A DNA stretch of 20,271 nt from a virus. Location: the IMG/VR virus record IMGVR_UViG_3300032285_000047, positions 1 to 20,271 of that record. The stretch is one strand, 5' to 3'. The translations under genes were made by a program, and so were the position numbers. Shown piece after piece: positions 1,244-19,737 of the stretch. How positions within the stretch are numbered: the first letter of the stretch is position 1; each line of letters opens with the position of its first letter. Below the pieces are notes generated by a model. That model did not search any database. It saw only the letters and a program-made list of their open reading frames with translations, and was not told where the DNA came from.

Positions 1244-1798
1244 ATGTCAATCGCTAATTTACTGACATTGAATGTCAACGAACATACTGAGAAGAAAGCC
1301 AATCTCACTTATCTTTCATGGGCATGGGCATGGGCTGAAGCACTTAAAGCAGACCCCAAAGCCTCGTTCAAGGTTGAGATGTTTGGTGACAAGTGCTTCA
1401 TGGACATCAACGGCACAGCAATGGTGTGGGTCACAGTCACCATGTTTGACAAGCCAATGACTTGCCAGCTTCCCGTGATGGATCACCGCAACAAAGCCAT
1501 CGTGAACCCTGATGCTTTCCAAGTGAACACCGCCATCATGCGTTGCATGACCAAGGCACTTAGCTTACATGGCCTCGGGTTATACATCTACGCAGGGGAA
1601 GATTTGCCAGATGGTGCAGAGCCTGAATCAACCATTGAGCCTGACAGCATGACAGATTTATTCTTGGCTATTTATAGAGCAACTACACAAGATGAACTCA
1701 AGGTTGCCTATAAAGTAGCGTATGCCGCTTGTGATGGCGATAAAGCCTGGCAACTCAAAGTTATTGCGGCTAAAGATGCAGCAAAGGCAAAACTTTAA
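1244..1798 (+). CDS. single-strand annealing protein, Sak3/DUF1071-like
   Basis: The N-terminal half matches the Sak3/DUF1071 pattern of phage annealing proteins: NLTYLSWAWAWAEALK at about residues 20-35, then a beta-rich core and FQVNTAIMRCMTKALSLHGLG at roughly 92-112. Such proteins pair complementary single strands during phage recombination and genome replication, working with an exonuclease. The partner exonuclease and an SSB-like gene follow within 1 kb, which strongly supports the role. The C-terminal third (from about residue 125) is a helical region, Ala/Lys-rich toward its end, and looks less conserved. AAGGA lies eight bases before the ATG. The family assignment rests on recall of the motif, not on a search. 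Confidence 0.75.
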   Translation: MSIANLLTLNVNEHTEKKANLTYLSWAWAWAEALKADPKASFKVEMFGDKCFMDINGTAMVWVTVTMFDKPMTCQLPVMDHRNKAIVNPDAFQVNTAIMRCMTKALSLHGLGLYIYAGEDLPDGAEPESTIEPDSMTDLFLAIYRATTQDELKVAYKVAYAACDGDKAWQLKVIAAKDAAKAKL

Positions 1799-1818
1799 TG
1801 TGGCGTAAAAGGGAAATC

Positions 1819-2022
1819 ATGAAAACTGAAGAAGATGACGAATTCGACCGCATTGAGCATGAAGCCTTGATGCGTACTGGTCAACCATACCATTGGGATG
1901 TGTTTGTGTCTGTCTCACAACGCAATCAGGTCTTAGAAGAAGTAGCCAAAGAGTTTGACAAGATGCCCTTTGGCGACACAGCCGCTAGTTTTTCCGCTTT
2001 TGTAAGGAGTATGAAGAAATGA
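1819..2022 (+). CDS. small acidic protein between annealing protein and exonuclease (67 aa)
   Basis: An upstream in-frame ATG at 1798 overlaps the previous stop, but AAAAGGG at 1807-1813 sits well placed for the ATG at 1819, so I start there. The product is acidic at the N-terminus (EEDDEFDRIEHE) and helical, with a short hydrophobic middle, and ends in a basic SMKK. Its last four bases overlap the exonuclease start (ATGA), so it belongs to the recombination cluster. It may be an accessory factor of that cluster. I recognise no domain. Confidence 0.65.
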   Translation: MKTEEDDEFDRIEHEALMRTGQPYHWDVFVSVSQRNQVLEEVAKEFDKMPFGDTAASFSAFVRSMKK

Positions 2023-2645
2023 TAGAAATGATGGATCAAGGCTCAGAAGAATGGTTCACCATTCGCATTGGTAAAGTCACCGCATCTCGTGTGGCAGATG
2101 TGATTGCCAAGACCAAGACGGGTTACAGCGCTAGTCGTGACAACTACATGGCTCAGTTGATCTGTGAACGCCTGACGGGTTTAAAAGGTGAGAGTTTCAC
2201 CAACGCTGCCATGCAACACGGCACAGACACAGAACCCCTTGCAAGAGCCGCTTATGAGGCTTTACAGGATGTTTTGGTTGATGAAGTGGGGTTTGTACCC
2301 CATCCCACAATTGAGATGGCTGGCGCTTCTCCTGATGGCATGGTGGGTGATGATGGTCTATTAGAGATTAAATGCCCCAACACTGCCACGCACATTGAGA
2401 CTTTGATTTCCAAAGTAGTGCCAAGCAAATACAACACCCAGATGCAGTTTCAAATGGCTTGCACAGGGCGTAAGTGGTGCGATTTTGTCAGCTTTGACAA
2501 TCGTTTACCTGAGATGTTTCAGTTGTTTGTGACACGAGTTCCACGGGATGAAGTGTTTATCAGATTGATTGAATCGGAGATTGTCCAATTCATTGCTGAA
2601 CTGGATGACAAAATTAATAAACTAATGAAAGTAAGAAATGTCTAA
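2019..2645 (+). CDS. YqaJ/lambda-type recombination exonuclease (208 aa)
   Basis: This encodes a nuclease of the YqaJ viral recombinase family, related to lambda exonuclease. It would resect double-stranded DNA ends to expose strands for the annealing protein. Visible motifs are GSEEWFTIRIGKVTAS near residues 8-23, E73 in TDTEPLARAAYE, and the metal-binding core with D106 in GASPDG and E116/K118 in LLEIKC. A conserved Gln-rich helix (NTQMQFQMA) follows. The length of 208 is normal for the family and all expected catalytic residues are present. It is coupled by ATGA to the small gene before it and overlaps the SSB-like gene after it by eight bases. Confidence 0.88.
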   Translation: MIEMMDQGSEEWFTIRIGKVTASRVADVIAKTKTGYSASRDNYMAQLICERLTGLKGESFTNAAMQHGTDTEPLARAAYEALQDVLVDEVGFVPHPTIEMAGASPDGMVGDDGLLEIKCPNTATHIETLISKVVPSKYNTQMQFQMACTGRKWCDFVSFDNRLPEMFQLFVTRVPRDEVFIRLIESEIVQFIAELDDKINKLMKVRNV

Positions 2646-5035: not shown

Positions 5036-5235
5036 TTTGACCAGTAATGAGAAATATATCCAAAGACTGAAGAAATGGCAGAGACAAAAGCCATGCCCAT
5101 CCAAAAGCCTCCACGACCCTTGTTAGCCAAAGCAATCAGGGTTTCCATGTTGGCTTCTAGCTTGTCGATCTTGGCTTCCATAGATTCGACCTTTTGCCAC
5201 AGAACGCCATATTTGACTAAATCAATGTCAGACAT
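5032..5235 (-). CDS. XhlA-like coiled-coil protein with C-terminal membrane span (67 aa)
   Basis: Residues 12-35 form a heptad-like coiled coil (KVESMEAKIDKLEANMETL), followed by a short Gly/Arg turn and one membrane span (about residues 44-61, WMGMAFVSAISSVFGYIS). This is the shape of XhlA-type lysis accessory proteins. The start overlaps the stop of the large ejection gene by one base (TAATG), with GGGGAAA just upstream as ribosome binding site. It opens the lysis cassette. The family link rests on architecture, not on a diagnostic motif. Confidence 0.6.
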   Translation of the reverse strand: MSDIDLVKYGVLWQKVESMEAKIDKLEANMETLIALANKGRGGFWMGMAFVSAISSVFGYISHYWSK

Positions 5236-7487
5236 TATTTCCCCAGATCGCTTAATTTGTTTTGACCTTTTTGCCGTGTGCCAGCGCCAACCTCAAGGGC
5301 TTTGCGGGTTTCGGCTTCTGCGGCTCGTCTGGCTCTCATTTCCATGACAGTTGTGCCAAGCTGTAAGCCTGGCACAGCCACATTCAAACCCTTTTCAACG
5401 CCCATGGAAACGCCTTTACCCGCCTTTTCAGCAAGTGACCCCACCAATGTATTGGAGTTGTTTACAAACGCACCACGGGGCTGTGCTTGGGTATATCGTG
5501 CCACATTTCCCAAAGTCTTGAGTTGTGAAGCGGCTTCTTGGTTAAAAATAGCGTTTAGATTTTGGACATCATCCAATCTCTTGAGAGCCTTGTTGTATCC
5601 CGCTTGGCTGAAATTGCCATTGCCATCAACAATTCCCGCTTTGTCTGTAAGCCAGTTGACAGTTCCCGCAGCCATGTGCTGATGGGCGGGTGAATCTACG
5701 CCTAAGTTTTGAACCATTGTGTTGATGTTCTTGTTCACGCCATTCACGACAAACTTGTCAATGAACTTGTCAGCGGGAACAGAATCATCCACAGCCGCTT
5801 TCATGGCGGGGTCTTTTTCAAGCATTTGAAATCTTGCTTTTGCAGATGCTCGGGCTTTGTCAGCCAAAGGTTTAAGAGCAGCGGCTTCTTTCTGAAGTGG
5901 CAATTTTTCCAATTCTTCAATCATGTAACTAGCGGCTTTGCGAACACTTCCGTCTTGGCTTGTTCTAGCAATATCACCAAGATTTCGCCTCAAAGACAAA
6001 TAGTCCTCAAAGGTCATTGAATTGTTTTCAGCCAATCGTTTTAGTTCACTAAATTGACCCGCTGGCGCTTCATTGGACAACAATTCTTTTTTGAGTTTTG
6101 TTTCAACATTTTGAAGCAACTTGGGTGCGTCAACAGGGAACTGACCACCAGCGGCATCACGCAAGGCTTGATAGTCTGCGTTAATTCCTGTATTTAATTT
6201 GTTGTCCAAATCTTTATAAGCATCAATGATGCCTTGGCTGTTTTCGATCTTCTTTGTGCCGTACACATCAGGGGCGGCTTTGTCACGAATCAAACCAAGA
6301 TTCTCAACAAGTTGACCATTTTGTTCATTAAATCGTTGTGCCAACACAGGGTCTTTGCCACGCCTGTTTTGCTCGTTGGACAACTTGACCACATCACCAG
6401 TGGCTTGACCTTCTGTCAAACGAACAGGCACAGGCAATGTGTCAGCCTCAATGTGTCTTTGCAATGTCGGGATATTGACTTCATTGACAGGGATTGAGGA
6501 AATCGTTTTTTGCAGTTCAGGGGTCGCCACAGACAAGGCTTGCTTGATGGTAGTGGTATCAGGAACTACAGCAGCGCCAGCGCTTACCATGCCAGGCTTG
6601 GCAACAATACCAGACGGGGCAACAGATGTGGGGGTAAGTTCAGCAGCGGCAGTCTTTAAGCCTCTGACAACTTTAGGTGCAGCCGCACCACCCGCCATCA
6701 TTGCCGCATTAATTGCATTTTCCACATCGGCAGCAGGAACGCCAAATTTCTGAGCAATTGCTTGTGCGCCTTCACCAATGTTCTTGCCGATGTATTCCAT
6801 TACCTGAGTTGGCAAGGCTTGACGATAACCCGCAGTCTGGGATAGTCCTGTCAAACGACCAACAGGCTCGGCAAGTGCGCCACCGACCTTTTGTGAGGCT
6901 TCTGTGGCTTGTTCAGGCGACAGGCCAAACAAACGCCCTGCACCATAACCAATCGTGCTTGCAATAGCAGAGGGGGCGCTTGCCACCACATCAGCGGCAG
7001 ATGCCAGAAAGCCTGGCACTTGTCGCTTCATTTCTAAGCCTGTGCCTAATATGCTACCAACAAGACTTTTTACTTTTGTCGGTTCTTCTTTGGGTTTTTC
7101 TTTTTCACCAACATTCAAAGAATCTATGTAATCTGCAAATGTTTTGCCTTCAGGATTTTTGGTAGGCATCAATACCGCATGAACAGGGTCTTTAGAACCT
7201 AGTGGTCGATGGATTCCATACTGATTCAAAAATGATTCAGGCACAGAAGCTGGTATGTCTGCGGCTTCATTGGTTTCGTGCTTGGAAGTGCCAGGCGCAG
7301 CCACCATGTTTGGATTCTTAGAACGCTCTGCAAACAATTTTTCTTGTTCAGCACGATTGCGAAATCCACTTGTGATGGGCATATCTTTGCCGAACTGTTT
7401 GCGATAAGCATCTTTAGCATCGCTCAAACGAGTCTGAAACTCGTTGTCACCTGAAACTGTATCAATATAGTCGGCAAAGGTAGGCAT
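5235..7487 (-). CDS. ejection protein with N-terminal M15/VanY-like peptidase domain (750 aa)
   Basis: This is the largest of three ejection (internal virion) proteins and lies in the P22 gp16 position. Residues 30-105 form an M15 D,D-carboxypeptidase/endopeptidase-like domain: ITSGFR at 38-43, GTSKHETNEAAD with H70 and D77 as zinc ligands, and DPVH with H103 as third ligand. The catalytic base expected as Glu in EPWH is Asp100 here. A TFADYID motif occurs at residues 3-9 and again at 117-123. The rest is long, Ala/Gly-rich and helical (about 140-750) with weakly hydrophobic stretches near 160-290. It probably enters the host with the DNA and opens the peptidoglycan. The start overlaps the previous stop (TAATG). 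Confidence 0.75.
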   Translation of the reverse strand: MPTFADYIDTVSGDNEFQTRLSDAKDAYRKQFGKDMPITSGFRNRAEQEKLFAERSKNPNMVAAPGTSKHETNEAADIPASVPESFLNQYGIHRPLGSKDPVHAVLMPTKNPEGKTFADYIDSLNVGEKEKPKEEPTKVKSLVGSILGTGLEMKRQVPGFLASAADVVASAPSAIASTIGYGAGRLFGLSPEQATEASQKVGGALAEPVGRLTGLSQTAGYRQALPTQVMEYIGKNIGEGAQAIAQKFGVPAADVENAINAAMMAGGAAAPKVVRGLKTAAAELTPTSVAPSGIVAKPGMVSAGAAVVPDTTTIKQALSVATPELQKTISSIPVNEVNIPTLQRHIEADTLPVPVRLTEGQATGDVVKLSNEQNRRGKDPVLAQRFNEQNGQLVENLGLIRDKAAPDVYGTKKIENSQGIIDAYKDLDNKLNTGINADYQALRDAAGGQFPVDAPKLLQNVETKLKKELLSNEAPAGQFSELKRLAENNSMTFEDYLSLRRNLGDIARTSQDGSVRKAASYMIEELEKLPLQKEAAALKPLADKARASAKARFQMLEKDPAMKAAVDDSVPADKFIDKFVVNGVNKNINTMVQNLGVDSPAHQHMAAGTVNWLTDKAGIVDGNGNFSQAGYNKALKRLDDVQNLNAIFNQEAASQLKTLGNVARYTQAQPRGAFVNNSNTLVGSLAEKAGKGVSMGVEKGLNVAVPGLQLGTTVMEMRARRAAEAETRKALEVGAGTRQKGQNKLSDLGK

Positions 7488-13180: not shown

Positions 13181-15301
13181 TTACAAAATTGTTACTTGGG
13201 AGTTACCCATACCGCCACCAATAACTTGGATGCCAACTCGTGCGGTTTCACTTGTTCCTGCTGCGGTTGTTGTTCTAACAGTCAATAAAGCGCCAGCCAA
13301 GACAAATGATAGAGTCATGTTTACGCCAGTAATGTTGGTGATGTTTTGTTCAACCAAAGTGCCTGAACCATTTTCATTGATCAAACTTTCACGAACAGCG
13401 CATCTAGCACCGCCAGCACTTGACGCGTAATTTGCAACAACTTTAACAGTTGCGGCTTTTCCATTAAATGCACCAAAATCAATTGTGTACCAATCTGTTG
13501 ATGAAGCGGCTGAAACTGTCTTTACGCCAGTATTTCCCCAACTTGCATATTTGGCAACATAGTTACCAATCACAGACGATCCACCCGACAAATCAAGCAT
13601 TGGCTTTGCGCTTGCTTGGTTTGTGAATGGAGAAGTAACAGCAGCGCCACGACCCATTGATACAGCACTGATTCGGATGGTAAATGGATTAGCAGATGTG
13701 AAACGCAACAGGCCACCAGTCATGCCAGTTGCCATGATCCATCCATTACTTAATCTAAATAAGTTGGCTGAACCATAAAGGAAAGTTGATGCGCCTGGCT
13801 GAAACACCTCAATTGACGCATCGCCTGAAGTCACTTTATAAATGACTGCATACGACATTGGTGTGTAGTTGTTTCCATTATCAGAAACTGAGTTTGTAAC
13901 GCCACAAACAGCAAAAGCAACACTGCTAGAAAACTGAACAGCTTTACCAAGTCCTGTTGGCTCTGTGCTATCAGAAACAACTGAAGCACTCATGCTCACT
14001 TGATAAAAACAAGCGGGATAGCCACTTTCATTTAAGACTGACCAATCACCACCCAAAAGCACATTGCCATTTGGAGAAATTTGAGGGGCGACACGGGCTT
14101 CTCCTGCAAGTGGTGCTGGCTCTCCCGAATATGGAATGTTGAAGCCAATTTGACCACCACCCATTGTGTTGCTGCTTTCACCTGAAAAGTGGGTGTTTTC
14201 AATTTGCCATGAATCGCCATAAACGCCACGAACAGTGGTTTCATTGTAAAGACCAATTATTCGATTAACACCGCCAGATGTAACGCCATTGCCAAGACTG
14301 TCACCAATTACCATTGCATAAACATTGCCATCAGGTGCAGTGATGCCATTTCCAGTTTGACAATACACTTCACATGAAAGCATTTGATTCATGTGGAAAC
14401 TTTGAACAGGGTTATGTCCTGATGAATATCCAACATACCCCGTATTTTTTACCCACCAATTTGCCCATTGACATTCAACAAATTGATTTGAGTTAACAGG
14501 GCCATATCGTTGGTCACAGATAATATTTCCAAATTGGCAACTTCTAAATGTGTTGAAATAAAAACCTACAAAATCTCCTGCTACGGGATAGTCGCCACCA
14601 AACCAACTAGTTCCGCTAACAGTAACGCCTGTATATGCAGAATACCAAGATGAAAAACGGCAATCGCCTGTAATGTGAACACTATTTATAGCGCATTGTT
14701 TGCCAAGAAAATATGCAGCAGTTGGTGATCCAAATGTTGTTGAACCAACAATTGTCATGTTTTGCAAAATGACGCAGTTATAAACACAAAACCAAGCCTT
14801 ATTGAGACCATAACCAACGCCAGCCGTTGCGTAAGGGTCAACAATTACATCAGGAACAACTTTATAAGATTTTGCCAATCCATCAATTGTGCGACCCGCT
14901 GCCGCTGCAAACATGGCGTTCATAGCCGTTGTATCATTGGTTACGCCATCACCTTTTGCGCCAAACATCAAAGGGGTCAGAATTGGTGAAGTCAGATCGC
15001 CAATTGAAGTAATAGATGGAATGTTGTCGTAGGTGTTTAACAAAGTTCCTGTGGCAGTCTTAACAACATATTTGTAAAGCTGATCAGGTGTTACCCAAAT
15101 TTCACCGCTTGGCACTCTACCCGCAGAATCCAAAACGATTGGATTGCTTTGAGCAATTGATCCTGAACTTGATGTGTAGGTTGTCGCTGGTGTGTTAGTT
15201 CCTGCCAAGTAAGAATAGATCAATCCTCCCGCTAATGGGATGCCATTGTTGTCAAATAGTTGCTGCCCAACGCCAGCAAAACAGGAAAGATTGACTGTCA
15301 T
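13181..15301 (-). CDS. tailspike with head-binding-like domain and beta-helix (706 aa)
   Basis: Residues 1-97 resemble the P22 tailspike head-binding domain (QQLFDNNGIPLAGGLIYSYLAG, then VLDSAGRVPSGEIWVTPDQLYKYVV). After a linker, LMFGAKGDGVTNDTTAMNA at 111-129 is the usual opening of a right-handed beta-helix of the pectate-lyase type, which continues to about 380. Residues 380-560 are beta-rich, and the C-terminal part (590-706) looks like a jelly-roll or trimer cap. Such spikes bind and often cleave host surface polysaccharide. Catalytic acids cannot be assigned by eye. Its start overlaps the APS-kinase-like stop by four bases (ATGA), tying it to the sulfation pair. Confidence 0.8.
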   Translation of the reverse strand: MTVNLSCFAGVGQQLFDNNGIPLAGGLIYSYLAGTNTPATTYTSSSGSIAQSNPIVLDSAGRVPSGEIWVTPDQLYKYVVKTATGTLLNTYDNIPSITSIGDLTSPILTPLMFGAKGDGVTNDTTAMNAMFAAAAGRTIDGLAKSYKVVPDVIVDPYATAGVGYGLNKAWFCVYNCVILQNMTIVGSTTFGSPTAAYFLGKQCAINSVHITGDCRFSSWYSAYTGVTVSGTSWFGGDYPVAGDFVGFYFNTFRSCQFGNIICDQRYGPVNSNQFVECQWANWWVKNTGYVGYSSGHNPVQSFHMNQMLSCEVYCQTGNGITAPDGNVYAMVIGDSLGNGVTSGGVNRIIGLYNETTVRGVYGDSWQIENTHFSGESSNTMGGGQIGFNIPYSGEPAPLAGEARVAPQISPNGNVLLGGDWSVLNESGYPACFYQVSMSASVVSDSTEPTGLGKAVQFSSSVAFAVCGVTNSVSDNGNNYTPMSYAVIYKVTSGDASIEVFQPGASTFLYGSANLFRLSNGWIMATGMTGGLLRFTSANPFTIRISAVSMGRGAAVTSPFTNQASAKPMLDLSGGSSVIGNYVAKYASWGNTGVKTVSAASSTDWYTIDFGAFNGKAATVKVVANYASSAGGARCAVRESLINENGSGTLVEQNITNITGVNMTLSFVLAGALLTVRTTTAAGTSETARVGIQVIGGGMGNSQVTIL

Positions 15302-15747
15302 ATTTCAACTCCAATTGTCTTTATAGGCCGCTTAATTATGTCGGCAATTTCTTCAACATGATAAGTTGGAAACACATGATCAAATTCATTTCTGATCCGA
15401 ATATTCCACTCTTTTGGTTGCTCAAAAAGTTTGTTTGTATCAGCAAAACGACCCTCTTTAATTCGATCAACCCAGATCACAAAATCAGCGGCAAACGCCT
15501 TTCTTGTTTCCTCAGTTGGGCAGATTAAATCTGCAATCGCATGGCATCCCCATCTAGAAGCTACTGAACACAAATGACCCATGCGTCTTGCTTGTTCAAC
15601 ACGATCCTCAATGCTAAAGCCTAAATCTTTGTTGATATGCTGACGAATGTCATCAGCATTGAAATGAACGGCACTCATCAATCTAGCCAGTTCAGTTGCT
15701 AGTGTGGTTTTACCTGCGCCAGGCAGTCCCATCACTAAAATTTTCAT
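15298..15747 (-). CDS. APS-kinase-like P-loop kinase (149 aa)
   Basis: The sequence fits adenylylsulfate kinase (CysC), which uses ATP to turn APS into PAPS, the sulfate donor. Visible are the P-loop GLPGAGKTT at 7-15, NADDIR at 30-35 in place of DGDNVR, DLGFSIEDR at 41-49, ARRMGHLCSVA after it, and ICPTEETRKAF at 75-85, which matches ISPxxxxR in CysC. It is about 50 residues shorter than bacterial CysC: the N-terminal arm is missing and the lid region after residue 95 is reduced. Another small-molecule kinase role is possible. Start and stop both overlap neighbours by four bases, so it is translated together with the sulfotransferase-like gene and the tailspike. Confidence 0.72.
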   Translation of the reverse strand: MKILVMGLPGAGKTTLATELARLMSAVHFNADDIRQHINKDLGFSIEDRVEQARRMGHLCSVASRWGCHAIADLICPTEETRKAFAADFVIWVDRIKEGRFADTNKLFEQPKEWNIRIRNEFDHVFPTYHVEEIADIIKRPIKTIGVEI

Positions 15748-16304
15748 TTTTTCAGGCTTTGCAAATTGTTGAGCAACGCAAAATCAGCCGCATAAAACTC
15801 ATCTAATTTTGCTTTGACTTCAGGCGTTGATTGAATGTAGGCCAATGCTTGTTCATCCAATTCTTTTGGAGAGTCATTCATCACAAACTGAAAATCAAAG
15901 TTTTCAATTGTTTTTGCTTGGTACTTTGTAGCCAGTTGTTTTAATTTTTCGTTTAGCTGATTGTCAATAACAATGACTTCATCAAACTTTTGATCGCCAA
16001 TGTATGAACTCTGAGTTTGCAAATGAAATTCCATTTCTGACAAACCCAAAGTGGCAACGCAATCGTTAATGTGTTTTTGCACATCAACATTCATGCCTTC
16101 ATAGGTTGTGCGCTTTGGCAAGCCTGTAGGTGGGTATGAACCAAACAAAGAAATCTCATCAACAATTGTTTTTACATTTGACCAAAAACGAATGTATGGA
16201 TCACGCAAAAAACAAACCGACACATCTTGCTCACACATCAATGTTTGAGACAAAAATAACGCATATCGTGATGCGTTTTTTGGGATTTCAAGGATTTTTA
16301 TCAT
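15744..16304 (-). CDS. sulfotransferase-like protein (186 aa)
   Basis: Two PAPS-binding signatures are visible. EIPKNASRYA at residues 6-15 matches the 5'-phosphosulfate loop (PKxxST/S type), and CFLRDPYIRFWSNVKT at 31-46 matches the 3'-phosphate motif RDPxxRxxS with S42. The order and close spacing fit the compact carbohydrate sulfotransferase families. The remainder (50-186) is mixed alpha/beta with several Lys/Asp helices and would hold the acceptor site. The catalytic base is not assignable. No signal peptide, so it acts in the cytoplasm. It overlaps the fibre before and the APS-kinase-like gene after by four bases each. The call is from motifs; a search of structure or profile would settle it. 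Confidence 0.68.
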   Translation of the reverse strand: MIKILEIPKNASRYALFLSQTLMCEQDVSVCFLRDPYIRFWSNVKTIVDEISLFGSYPPTGLPKRTTYEGMNVDVQKHINDCVATLGLSEMEFHLQTQSSYIGDQKFDEVIVIDNQLNEKLKQLATKYQAKTIENFDFQFVMNDSPKELDEQALAYIQSTPEVKAKLDEFYAADFALLNNLQSLKK

Positions 16305-17401
16305 GAAAATGCCACTCCGCTAGTCACACCACGAAACACAACAATTGCCGTACAAGCATTGTTTGCTTTTGCTGTGATCGTAATATTGCCATACGAACCA
16401 GCGGATTTTGTGGCTGTGAAAGTTGGCGCTGTTGTAATTGAAAATCCATTCATGGATGAATTATTAGCAATCAAAGTGCTTGATCCACCGCCATACCAAC
16501 TACTACTGCCAAGTGAAGTTTGTGCAGCATAAGAATACACATAAACAGCCATACCATCAGGGTAACTTCCTGATTGAATAATAATTTCAAACACGCCACC
16601 AATAGTTGCACCATACGAATTTTCCGTGATGGTCATAATCGTTGTTGTGGTATTTGCCGCCAACGATGTTTGTTTTGATGTAAGTTGTTGGTAATTTACA
16701 AGTGTGGTGTCACCTGTTGATGTCAGTGTGGTGAACTTGCCTGTGGTTGCAGTTGTTGCACCAATGGTCACATTATTCAATGCGCTGACTGTGCCACCCA
16801 AAGAAACAGCAGTTGAGCCAAATGTGATGGAAGAATTTGACAAACCACCATTAGGGATGCCTGTGAAATTCGTGCCTGTCAATGTTGGTGTGTTTGTCCA
16901 AGAGGGTGCGCCTGACGCATTACCAATCAAGACTTGTGTGTTTGTTCCCGCTGCGGTGCTTCCCATCGCAGTTGTGCTTGCACCATAAATCAGGCCATAT
17001 TGGGTCAGATTGCTTGTCTGTCCTGTTCCACCATTGCCAACACCCAAAGTGCCTGAAACATGGGTTGACAGGCCAATCTTGCCCCACAAAGGCGCTGTGC
17101 TTACGCCACCAGAGATCAAAGCGTTGCCAGTTGCTACATCAGGAAGTTTGGCAAGTGTGGTGGTGGTGTCTGCATAAATCAGATCACCAACGGCATAAGA
17201 TGTTTGCCCTGTGCCACCAGCAGTTGCGGGGACAGTTTTCCAACCAATTACTTGAACGGCATTTGCGTTGTCTTTATAAAACAACTTGCCATCGGTAATG
17301 TTGATTGCCAATTCACCACTAGCAAGACTTGCCGCCAAAGGAACATTGGTGGTCGTGCTGCTGTAGTAAAGCTGAATGGGGGTGTAGCCTGTCTGTGCCA
17401 T
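16301..17401 (-). CDS. tail fibre protein with GGTGQTS repeats (366 aa)
   Basis: The N-terminus (GYTPIQLYYSSTTTNVPLAASLASGELAIN split by a turn) is a common phage fibre start. GGTGQTS occurs at 62-68 and 124-130, each followed by a YGLIYG or GDLIYA strand. GATTATTGKFT at 214-224 is shared with other fibre genes here. The C-terminal 130 residues form a separate beta domain (ENSYGATIGGVFEIIIQ, SYGNITITAKANN) that probably makes the receptor-binding tip. The protein is Ser/Thr/Gly-rich, as trimeric fibres are. It directly follows the 91-residue gene with no gap and overlaps the sulfotransferase start by four bases. Confidence 0.72.
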   Translation of the reverse strand: MAQTGYTPIQLYYSSTTTNVPLAASLASGELAINITDGKLFYKDNANAVQVIGWKTVPATAGGTGQTSYAVGDLIYADTTTTLAKLPDVATGNALISGGVSTAPLWGKIGLSTHVSGTLGVGNGGTGQTSNLTQYGLIYGASTTAMGSTAAGTNTQVLIGNASGAPSWTNTPTLTGTNFTGIPNGGLSNSSITFGSTAVSLGGTVSALNNVTIGATTATTGKFTTLTSTGDTTLVNYQQLTSKQTSLAANTTTTIMTITENSYGATIGGVFEIIIQSGSYPDGMAVYVYSYAAQTSLGSSSWYGGGSSTLIANNSSMNGFSITTAPTFTATKSAGSYGNITITAKANNACTAIVVFRGVTSGVAFS

Positions 17402-17677
17402 TTAGATGCTCGGTGTAAAGACTTGGGGCAACCAAGGGGCAACAACAGTCTTTTGAGTGACTGCCGCTTGTTCATCAAGCCTTGCCTCAACTTGTGCGCC
17501 AATATCTCTTTTAACCCAATCAATGACCATTTCCTCGGTCACATCGGCAAAAGGAGTAGTCAAAACAGGCTCGGCAAAATTCCACCAACCTTCGGTTTCA
17601 ACCCCATTTTTAACGCAGAAATACCTAGCGCCTGTGATCAGATCGCCATCGGCTTGAATTTCTAGTATTTTCCACAT
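17402..17677 (-). CDS. small protein between two fibre genes (91 aa)
   Basis: The first 45 residues form beta strands (MWKILEIQADGDLITGARYF, GWWNFAEPVL), followed by an amphipathic helix with TEEMVIDWVKRDIGAQVEARLDEQ and a Pro-rich end. Small proteins of this kind sit between fibre genes in several phages and may help assemble or cap fibres, but no function is established to my knowledge. The ATG at 17677 overlaps the stop of the 686-residue fibre (TGATG) and uses the GGAGG in that fibre's final codons as ribosome binding site. The next fibre gene starts right after its stop. Confidence 0.62.
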   Translation of the reverse strand: MWKILEIQADGDLITGARYFCVKNGVETEGWWNFAEPVLTTPFADVTEEMVIDWVKRDIGAQVEARLDEQAAVTQKTVVAPWLPQVFTPSI

Positions 17678-17691
17678 CAGAATGTGCCTCC
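17677..17691 (-). repeat. 15-bp shared element: GGTF codons plus ribosome binding site (copy 2)
   Basis: The minus strand reads GGAGGCACATTCTGA. It ends the 686-residue fibre with GGTF and the stop, while GGAGG serves the ATG of the 91-residue gene. Same dual use as the copy at 10163-10177. Confidence 0.65.
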
Positions 17692-19737
17692 AAGAACGCC
17701 ACCAGTTGCGGTCAAAACGCCTGTGGATGGATTAAATTTCAGTTTAGTGGATGATACCTTGATTGGCAAATTTCCTGAAGTGGAAGTCACCCAAGACAAG
17801 TACATATCGATTGCTGTGCTAGTGTCATCCGTTACCGCCACATTGGTTGCATTTGTTGCGGTTGTGGCAGTGGTTGCCGAACCCGCAGAACCATCGATGT
17901 TCACGCCTGTCAAAGACTGTGCGCTGCTTGACCGATTCAAAGCAATGGAAGTCGTGCCAATGTAAAGGCTTGAATTGCCCAATACACCGCTTGGAATTGT
18001 TCCCGATAGTTGTCCCGCAGGGAGGCTTGTCAGGCTTGCCCCAGAGCCGCTAAAACCCGTTGCTGTGAACAATCCTGTGCTTGGGTTGTAGTTCAGCTTG
18101 GTAGAACTGACATATTCGGTTGTCAGGTTGCCTGTGGTCTGATTTGCAAACAGTGGATAACGCACCGCATTTGTGGTGGTGTCATCTGTCACAGTCGCAT
18201 AAGCGGTCGGAGTTGTCCAAGTCGGTGCGCTTGAGCCATTGGAAGTCAGAACTTGACCCGCTGAACCCGTTGCACCTGACACCGCCAAAGTGCTACTGAA
18301 ATCAATAGTGGTGAATTTTCCAGTTGTCGGAGTGGTTGCGCCAACAGTTCCATTAATATTGATTGAGGCAGTTCCTGTCAGATTGGTAACTGTGCCGCTA
18401 GATGGCGTACCCAAAGCCCCACCATTAACCACAAAAGCCCCGCTAGAGCCTGTATTCACGCCCAAAGCTGTCACTACCCCTGTGCCTGTTGTAATCGTGC
18501 TAGGGGCTAATCCCGCACCGCCACCAATCATCAAAGCATTTGCCGCCAAAGCCGCAGAAGATGCCCATGCCGATGCGCTTGAGAAGTAAGGAATACCACC
18601 GCTAGTTCCCGCCACAGTCAAAGCCAATGTGCCTGAAGTTGTGATGGGTGAGCCGCCAACAGAAATGATGCCACCCGTAAAGGTTTGAGCAACAGAAGTC
18701 ACAGTTCCTGTGGTGGGTGTTGCCCATGAGGGAATACCCGATGCCAAAGTCAAAACTTGCCCATTTGTGCCAGCACTTAAAAATGCGGTTGCACTAGAGC
18801 CAGTTTGATAAGGAATAGCACCAACAGTTCCATTTGCAAGATTTGTTGCAGATGTTGCAGTTGCCGCATTACCTGAAATTGATCCTGTGATCGTATTGGT
18901 CACACTCAAATTGGTAAGTGTTCCAACGCCTGTAATGCCTGTATATGATCCTGATATACGGGCGGTGTCAATCGTGCCACTAGTGATCTGAGTGGCGGCA
19001 ATTGCAATGTTTGTGCTACCCGCCAAAGTCAATTGGCCTTGTGCGTTGACAGTGAAAGTCCCAACCTGAGAAGCAGAACCATAGGCTGCCGCTGTAACGC
19101 CTGTGTTGGTAATGCTGAAAGTGTTGCCTGTAAGGGTTAACCCTGTTCCCGCTAAATAAGAACCCGCACCCGAAAACTGTGACCAAGTGATTGGGGTCAC
19201 ATCAATTGTGCCGCCCTGATTGGATGTGCAAACCCATCCTGTGTCAGATAGGGTTGTCCCTGATTCAATAAAGGTGAACGCTGATGGCACTTCAGCCCAA
19301 ACATTCATGTCGGCTGATCGTGACCAAGCTGTTGCAGAGGCCACATAAATGCCGTTAAATTGGCTGCTTGACTGATTCTTGACCAGAATCCGATCACCCG
19401 CACTTAGACTTGTTGCCCAATCACCACCGCCTTGAGTGCCAAGACCCGACAAGGTAATGTTTGCCGTTGTGGAGTAAACGCACGATGCTTTGACATCAAG
19501 ACCTTGAGCGACCGAATCCACATAACCCTTGTTGGCAATGTCAGTGTCGGCAGATGGGGTTGTGGTGATCGTGCCAGTTACAGTCGTAATGCTTGTAAAG
19601 GTGGCGTTTGCAGGGCCATAAAAAGGCGTTCCCGCTGGCCCAACAAAGTATTGGAGGGCAAAGGTAGGCTCAGGGGCAAAAACGCCCTGAACAGGGACAA
19701 TGTTGGTTGTCTGAGTGACAGCCGTATTGTTAGACAT
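17677..19737 (-). CDS. large repetitive tail fibre (686 aa)
   Basis: Residues 60-190 hold a recurrent phage fibre domain (TPSADTDIANKGYVDSVAQG, then DRILVKNQSSSQFNGIYV). The rest is Ser/Thr/Gly/Ala-rich with many short repeats: GQVL...PSW motifs near 326-338 and 494-507, GATTPTTGKFT at 466-476, and a duplicated module at 516-561 and 635-679 sharing VTDDT, GNL, VSSTKL, NPSTG and TATG. The end is LGGTF. This is the composition of a trimeric beta-structured fibre. The catalytic acids of an enzyme are not evident. It overlaps the stop of the preceding small gene by one base and carries the start site of the following one. Confidence 0.75.
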   Translation of the reverse strand: MSNNTAVTQTTNIVPVQGVFAPEPTFALQYFVGPAGTPFYGPANATFTSITTVTGTITTTPSADTDIANKGYVDSVAQGLDVKASCVYSTTANITLSGLGTQGGGDWATSLSAGDRILVKNQSSSQFNGIYVASATAWSRSADMNVWAEVPSAFTFIESGTTLSDTGWVCTSNQGGTIDVTPITWSQFSGAGSYLAGTGLTLTGNTFSITNTGVTAAAYGSASQVGTFTVNAQGQLTLAGSTNIAIAATQITSGTIDTARISGSYTGITGVGTLTNLSVTNTITGSISGNAATATSATNLANGTVGAIPYQTGSSATAFLSAGTNGQVLTLASGIPSWATPTTGTVTSVAQTFTGGIISVGGSPITTSGTLALTVAGTSGGIPYFSSASAWASSAALAANALMIGGGAGLAPSTITTGTGVVTALGVNTGSSGAFVVNGGALGTPSSGTVTNLTGTASININGTVGATTPTTGKFTTIDFSSTLAVSGATGSAGQVLTSNGSSAPTWTTPTAYATVTDDTTTNAVRYPLFANQTTGNLTTEYVSSTKLNYNPSTGLFTATGFSGSGASLTSLPAGQLSGTIPSGVLGNSSLYIGTTSIALNRSSSAQSLTGVNIDGSAGSATTATTATNATNVAVTDDTSTAIDMYLSWVTSTSGNLPIKVSSTKLKFNPSTGVLTATGGVLGGTF
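17701..17835 (-). repeat. C-terminal copy of a duplicated fibre module
   Basis: Encodes residues 635-679 of the large fibre. It shares VTDDT, GNL, VSSTKL, NPSTG and TATG in order with the copy at 18055-18192, with a one-residue length difference. This indicates an internal duplication that has since diverged. Confidence 0.6.
18055..18192 (-). repeat. first copy of a duplicated fibre module
   Basis: Encodes residues 516-561 of the large fibre and pairs with the copy at 17701-17835. The conserved blocks lie at the ends of the module and the middle is divergent. Confidence 0.6.

Follow-up and report, generated by a model that had tools for sequence, protein, structure and literature searches.

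The window analyzed here, a 20,271-base IMG/VR fragment of a virus of bacteria (record IMGVR_UViG_3300032285_000047), carries two overlapping genes between a tail-fibre-like and a tailspike-like gene. One encodes a sulfotransferase-like protein (S) and the other an APS-kinase-like protein (K; APS, adenosine 5'-phosphosulfate), and we consider it fairly probable (about 0.6) that they form a late-expressed two-enzyme sulfation cassette within a receptor-binding operon, a reading in which the activities, the host source of APS and the target are what we infer. K would phosphorylate APS taken from the sulfate-assimilation pathway of the host to 3'-phosphoadenosine 5'-phosphosulfate (PAPS), and S would move the sulfate from PAPS onto an acceptor, putatively a hydroxyl or glycan of the concurrently produced fibre or tailspike, with a host surface glycan as second choice. 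That K and S act in one pathway appears reasonably likely, and if they do, a virion acceptor is somewhat favored, since both genes overlap fibre and tailspike genes and the acceptor is thus most likely co-produced. The features of the operon are the following:

15744-16304, minus strand: S, divergent Sulfotransfer_2-like protein, 186 amino acids (profile; homologue CRP-901 gp49)
15298-15747, minus strand: K, APS-kinase-like P-loop kinase, 149 amino acids (Pfam, AlphaFold2 model, fold matches)
16301-16304, minus strand: ATGA overlap of fibre stop and S start (sequence)
15744-15747, minus strand: ATGA overlap of S stop and K start (sequence)
15298-15301, minus strand: ATGA overlap of K stop and tailspike start (sequence)
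16301-17401, minus strand: tail-fibre-like protein directly upstream of S, 366 amino acids, 29% Ser+Thr (open reading frame, composition)
13181-15301, minus strand: tailspike-like protein directly downstream of K, 706 amino acids (Pfam End_N_terminal 29.5 bits, cut-off 26.3; PHROG tail protein)
17402-17677, minus strand: DUF7936-like gene between both fibre genes, 91 amino acids (Pfam DUF7936 30.1 bits, cut-off 27)
17677-19737, minus strand: fibre-like protein, 686 amino acids, 32% Ser+Thr (PHROG tail-fibre and head-decoration matches; composition)

Transcription on the minus strand proceeds from the 686-residue fibre-like gene through the DUF7936-like gene, the 366-residue fibre-like gene, S and K to the tailspike-like gene, and the presence of adaptor-like and phage-stabilisation-like genes further downstream makes the region look like a late structural operon. 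The 366-residue protein belongs to no Pfam family, and its PHROG match is weak and to a PHROG of unknown function. A first-pass annotation of this DNA had placed the two open reading frames (ORFs) within 15298-16304, where they were confirmed on the minus strand as 186 amino acids at 16304-15744 and 149 amino acids at 15747-15298, and had quoted the motifs IPKNAS, RDPxxR..S, NADDIR, DLGFS and ICPTEETR, which are all present; it had also counted four ATGA junctions, of which the run has three, the upstream junction of the 366-residue fibre gene having no ATGA overlap. No ATP sulfurylase was seen among the ORFs of the window, itself a fragment. The window also lacks the small nucleotidyltransferase of many K relatives described below, so that its APS should be supplied by the host or encoded beyond this fragment.

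Kinase-like protein K and sulfotransferase-like protein S

K is an APS-kinase-like protein. APS_kinase (PF01583) was its best Pfam family (55.3 bits, cut-off 21.1), and when a K-family profile made of 22 relatives was searched against the PDB, APS kinases scored up to 55 bits and ordinary adenylate kinases about 23. AlphaFold2, run on 22 sequences, gave a confident model (mean predicted local distance difference test score, pLDDT, 90.6), and the 30 PDB entries that align best with it all have APS-kinase domains (Z 15.6-18.3), with residues 1-142 aligning to the APS-kinase fold at Z up to 18.3 and 1.9 Å, and the next-best fold outside the APS kinases was gluconate kinase (Z 14.9). The identification of K as a gluconate or shikimate kinase by fold was rejected on these lower scores, a comparison that concerns fold and not substrate. 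Conserved in K are the P-loop, both Asp and Arg in the DxxR block, and the NKxLGFSxxDR, RR and (I/V)xP blocks; as proposed in the first-pass annotation, its sequence as well as its fold place it among the APS kinases and not among unrelated nucleotide kinases. Its sequence and modelled structure together suggest that K is probably an APS kinase.

S carries an IPKNA loop, LRDPxxRFWS, HLQxQ and YAADFAL, and both IPKNA and LRxPxxRFWSxxKT are invariant across four S homologues, where they may represent the 5'- and 3'-phosphate loops of a PAPS site. Against a Sulfotransfer_2 profile built here from phage and bacterial proteins (one, L306, passing Pfam at 51.3 bits and eight annotated as sulfotransferases in public plasmids), S scored 19.0 bits and its homologue gp49 of Roseobacter phage CRP-901 17.3 bits, while 3000 shuffles of S proteins reached at most 11.8; 18 ORFs rank above S, at 20 to 121 bits, and the alignment of S spans RxPxxR to the C-terminal YxxD region. 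Comparison of the S profile with Sulfotransfer_2 by hhalign gave a low probability (5.7, P 0.0067), hence the likeness to Sulfotransfer_2 rests on the shuffle test. The S profile matched neither Sulfotransfer_3 nor, as a control, K, and gave chance-level matches only against PDB profiles; no S homologues were found in plasmids and bacterial genomes, and a Sulfotransfer_2 family search of the relatives did not detect S. We have accordingly filed S as Sulfotransfer_2-like and not as a family member; it is probably a sulfotransferase.

The order fibre-S-K-tailspike is kept in two relatives of the window, L005 (96% identity at the DNA level across 10.5 kb) and L006 (nucleotide identity of about 80%). 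The ratio of nonsynonymous to synonymous substitution rates (dN/dS) with respect to L006 was low for both genes, S giving about 0.12 and K about 0.08 (with the dS of K near saturation), which indicates that both are maintained by purifying selection. In CRP-901 the gene for gp49, the S relative, lies immediately behind a tail-fibre gene, which it overlaps by 4 bases, and the protein keeps the phosphate-loop-like and RxPxxR motifs at about 33-37% identity. The tailspike, one ORF of 706 amino acids in the window, corresponds in L006 (7004-9100) to two ORFs of 500 and 184 amino acids.

Pairing in viral contigs and bacterial genomes

The commonest neighbours of K relatives in viral contigs belong to a group that, where members were tested, passes Pfam Sulfotransfer_3, some of the proteins being fused to TPR-like and further sequence. 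Within a clade of 279-residue Sulfotransfer_3 proteins, K lies directly downstream on the same strand in 79 of 79 loci with room, the sulfotransferases of these loci being mutually close and their kinases sharing as little as about 47% identity with the query set; a wider sulfotransferase sample had K at 47 of 62 testable loci. For a control, loci in related phages were chosen by a neutral structural marker and had to be preceded by 6 kb or more of sequence; of these 20, four held both K and a sulfotransferase and 16 held neither (Fisher P 2e-4), i.e., a sulfotransferase at 4/4 K-bearing and 0/16 K-less loci, three of the four positives looking like one virus. Several K-less relatives retain the fibre and lysis genes and differ in the intervening stretch. 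The short NKDLGFS form of K occurs in 22 contigs of 15 kb or longer; 19 of them carry Sulfotransfer_3, and the remaining three include the two relatives of the window, which carry S. Three T4-like contigs (L078, L079 and L081) have a Sulfotransfer_2-like gene directly before K, ending on the K start. The pairing put forward in the first-pass annotation therefore recurs widely elsewhere, with other sulfotransferases.

These neighbours vary in architecture. The Sulfotransfer_3 proteins of L009 (1472-3268) and its relatives, of about 590 amino acids, combine the domain with TPR-like repeats and a C-terminal part without PDB sequence match. The Sulfotransfer_2-like genes of the T4-like contigs (L078 2344-3006, L079 2219-3262, L081 84-1070) encode proteins of 220, 347 and 328 amino acids, with variable Sel1-like-repeat insertions between the N-terminal loop and RxPxxR. 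The contig behind L238 (G059, 222 kb) has ten Sulfotransfer_2 matches, several in tandem, plus one Sulfotransfer_3.

A small nucleotidyltransferase with a GRWQPWHxGH motif accompanies many relatives of K, either as a fusion partner or as the following gene. In the PDB it matches nicotinamide mononucleotide (NMN) adenylyltransferase best, and one member only has a weak ATP-sulfurylase match. Its identification as a classical ATP sulfurylase was rejected, the sequence being nearer to NMN adenylyltransferase, and for this reason the role proposed below rests on genome context. The short and the long, nucleotidyltransferase-fused forms of K occur in tandem, in this order, in L013 (6001-7368).

K and the nucleotidyltransferase are present throughout the SAR86 matches, in several of them directly after a Sulfotransfer_3-type gene, and in L418 (6892-8796), for example, sulfotransferase, K and small nucleotidyltransferase are consecutive on a bacterial chromosome. 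A Pelagibacter genome (L414) has K followed by a sulfotransferase-like gene with a 4-base overlap, and a Rhodospirillales genome (L443) has K, the nucleotidyltransferase and a Sulfotransfer_2-like gene. Sat-type ATP sulfurylase was not found across 28 whole genomes, and strong CysD/CysH-type matches occurred in five genomes only, none of them SAR86. In the SAR86 genomes searched there was no recognisable ATP sulfurylase, canonical APS kinase (CysC), CysD or CysH; K was the sole APS_kinase match over the cut-off, also in the complete genome, and nearly all of them encode one to four Sulfotransfer_3 proteins. K with the adjacent nucleotidyltransferase is thus the only visible PAPS source in SAR86. 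The whole-genome search, made on genomes that are partly incomplete and related, revealed the nucleotidyltransferase in all CysD-less genomes (the Pelagibacter copy lying elsewhere in the genome), and among the five with strong CysD it had no match in four and was fused to K in the fifth. This presence and absence suggests, as the simplest reading, that PAPS is provided by K together with the nucleotidyltransferase. SAR11 has been reported to be without cysDNCHIJ and sat (PMC5069961). Tentatively, K and the small nucleotidyltransferase might represent an unrecognised minimal PAPS synthetase, with the latter acting as a novel kind of ATP sulfurylase, through which streamlined marine bacteria and phages would sulfate surface or virion molecules without the sulfate-assimilation pathway, the window being a K-only form living on host APS.

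Two further features of the window lie outside the cassette: a recombination pair of a Sak-type single-strand annealing protein and a YqaJ-type nuclease (1244-2645, plus strand), on the strand opposite to the structural genes, and a 750-residue structural-region protein with a VanY-type peptidase domain at its N-terminus (5235-7487, minus strand).

Alternative readings

Several observations weigh against a sulfation cassette. Compared with APS kinase (CysC; the APSK domain of PAPS synthetase), with which it shares the fold over residues 1-142 and the motif blocks, K has a lid region that is some 30 residues shorter, where the RDxKGLY and FTGI segments are incomplete and a family-specific GRFxDTNxxFxxP segment occupies the lid position; it has Gln for the usual Asn of ENxRR and Cys for the usual Ser of ISP, and misses the cut-off of the apsK equivalog (TIGR00455; 47.6 vs. 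138.7 bits). S shares with Sulfotransfer_2 (PF03567) the IPKNA-type loop, RxPxxRFxS and the C-terminal YxxD in the same order, but with 15.4 bits it remains under the 22-bit Pfam cut-off, and its AlphaFold2 model, obtained from three near-identical sequences, reached a pLDDT of 36.5 because homologues were too few. The pairing is not constant either: 15 of the 62 testable loci in the wider sulfotransferase sample are without nearby K (mostly divergent loci, in other glycan-type modules), a recognised sulfotransferase accompanies the long K-nucleotidyltransferase form in 10 of 36 contigs only, and no relative of K was found in CRP-901, where S is present alone and consequently does not invariably require its own kinase. 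What the first-pass annotation had proposed for S hence holds for a Sulfotransfer_2-like profile along most of the protein and fails at the Pfam cut-off, and the co-occurrence it expected in relatives, seen for S-K-tailspike in L005 and L006, breaks down in CRP-901.

The same two enzymes could sulfate a host surface glycan during infection, altering the receptor or hiding it from progeny or rival phages. The K neighbourhoods described above, which lie upstream of lysis-like genes, also hold fibre-like, GT25 (Glyco_transf_25, described as a lipopolysaccharide, LPS, biosynthesis family), Gly_transf_sug and methyltransferase genes, and bacterial Sulfotransfer_2 relatives adjoin glycosyltransferase, flippase and LPS genes; both settings would fit a host-glycan target. 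Modification of the host surface is, however, usually expressed early and from separate genes, whereas S and K are overlapped within a late structural operon, and we regard this target as rather unlikely.

K might otherwise phosphorylate a sugar, a nucleotide or an NMN-type compound, the sulfotransferase neighbourhood reflecting a shared glycan-modification module and not the supply of PAPS. The missing lid residues are consistent with another substrate, as is the fusion of long K relatives to an NMN-adenylyltransferase-like protein, often far from any sulfotransferase. This explanation appears unlikely in view of the best sequence and fold matches of K, all of them APS kinases, of the tie between the short NKDLGFS form and sulfotransferases, and of SAR86, which has no other visible PAPS source.

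The position of S behind a fibre gene with a 4-base overlap, in the window as well as in the K-less CRP-901, together with its weak sequence match, would also suit a non-enzymatic factor of tail-fibre assembly resembling a sulfotransferase by chance. Such a factor seems quite unlikely, as gp49 of CRP-901 keeps the motifs, the profile score of S is above all shuffles, and certain sulfotransferases occupy the slot of S before K in other phages.

Relation to known systems

Viral cysC has been reported as a sulfur assimilation or sulfur metabolism gene (PMC8066274, PMC9611531, PMC12766990), and a text search of these three papers found no mention of sulfotransferase; K is assigned to the same kinase family as these auxiliary metabolic genes. 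That K raises host cysteine synthesis, the usual interpretation of viral cysC (PMC9611531, PMC12766990), is very improbable, considering its place in a tail operon, the occurrence of the short form mostly beside fibre and sulfotransferase genes, and the K-bearing SAR86 genomes, in which CysH was not found and PAPS could therefore not serve cysteine synthesis. Phage Sulfotransfer_3 proteins (S-SRM01, OM43 phages) belong to a PAPS-dependent family and their function has been stated to be unclear (PMC10580990), while S resembles Sulfotransfer_2 instead.

The recurrent pairing gives viral cysC and phage sulfotransferases a common, testable role, namely sulfation in a host-recognition module, and offers an alternative to the usual reading of phage "sulfur metabolism" genes as cysteine helpers, with at least two sulfotransferase families occupying the same slot beside K. 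It also indicates a possible PAPS source for SAR86, which retains sulfotransferases without a recognisable sulfate-activation pathway. Should virion proteins indeed be sulfated, this would constitute a post-translational modification new to phage receptor-binding proteins.

In bacteria, NodPQ-NodH and RaxPQ-RaxST combine genes for making PAPS with a sulfotransferase dedicated to its use. The window likewise pairs a sulfotransferase-like gene with an enzyme of the PAPS-making type, adjacent and kept together, but no partner of ATP-sulfurylase type is visible in it, the setting is a phage tail operon, and the kinase is short and separate. No described phage sulfotransferase-kinase pair was found in the literature searched, most subscription journals being outside the search. 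The kind of system is known and, as far as the searches reach, its novelty lies in the setting within a phage host-recognition operon, in the variety of sulfotransferases with which it recurs and in the short form of the kinase.

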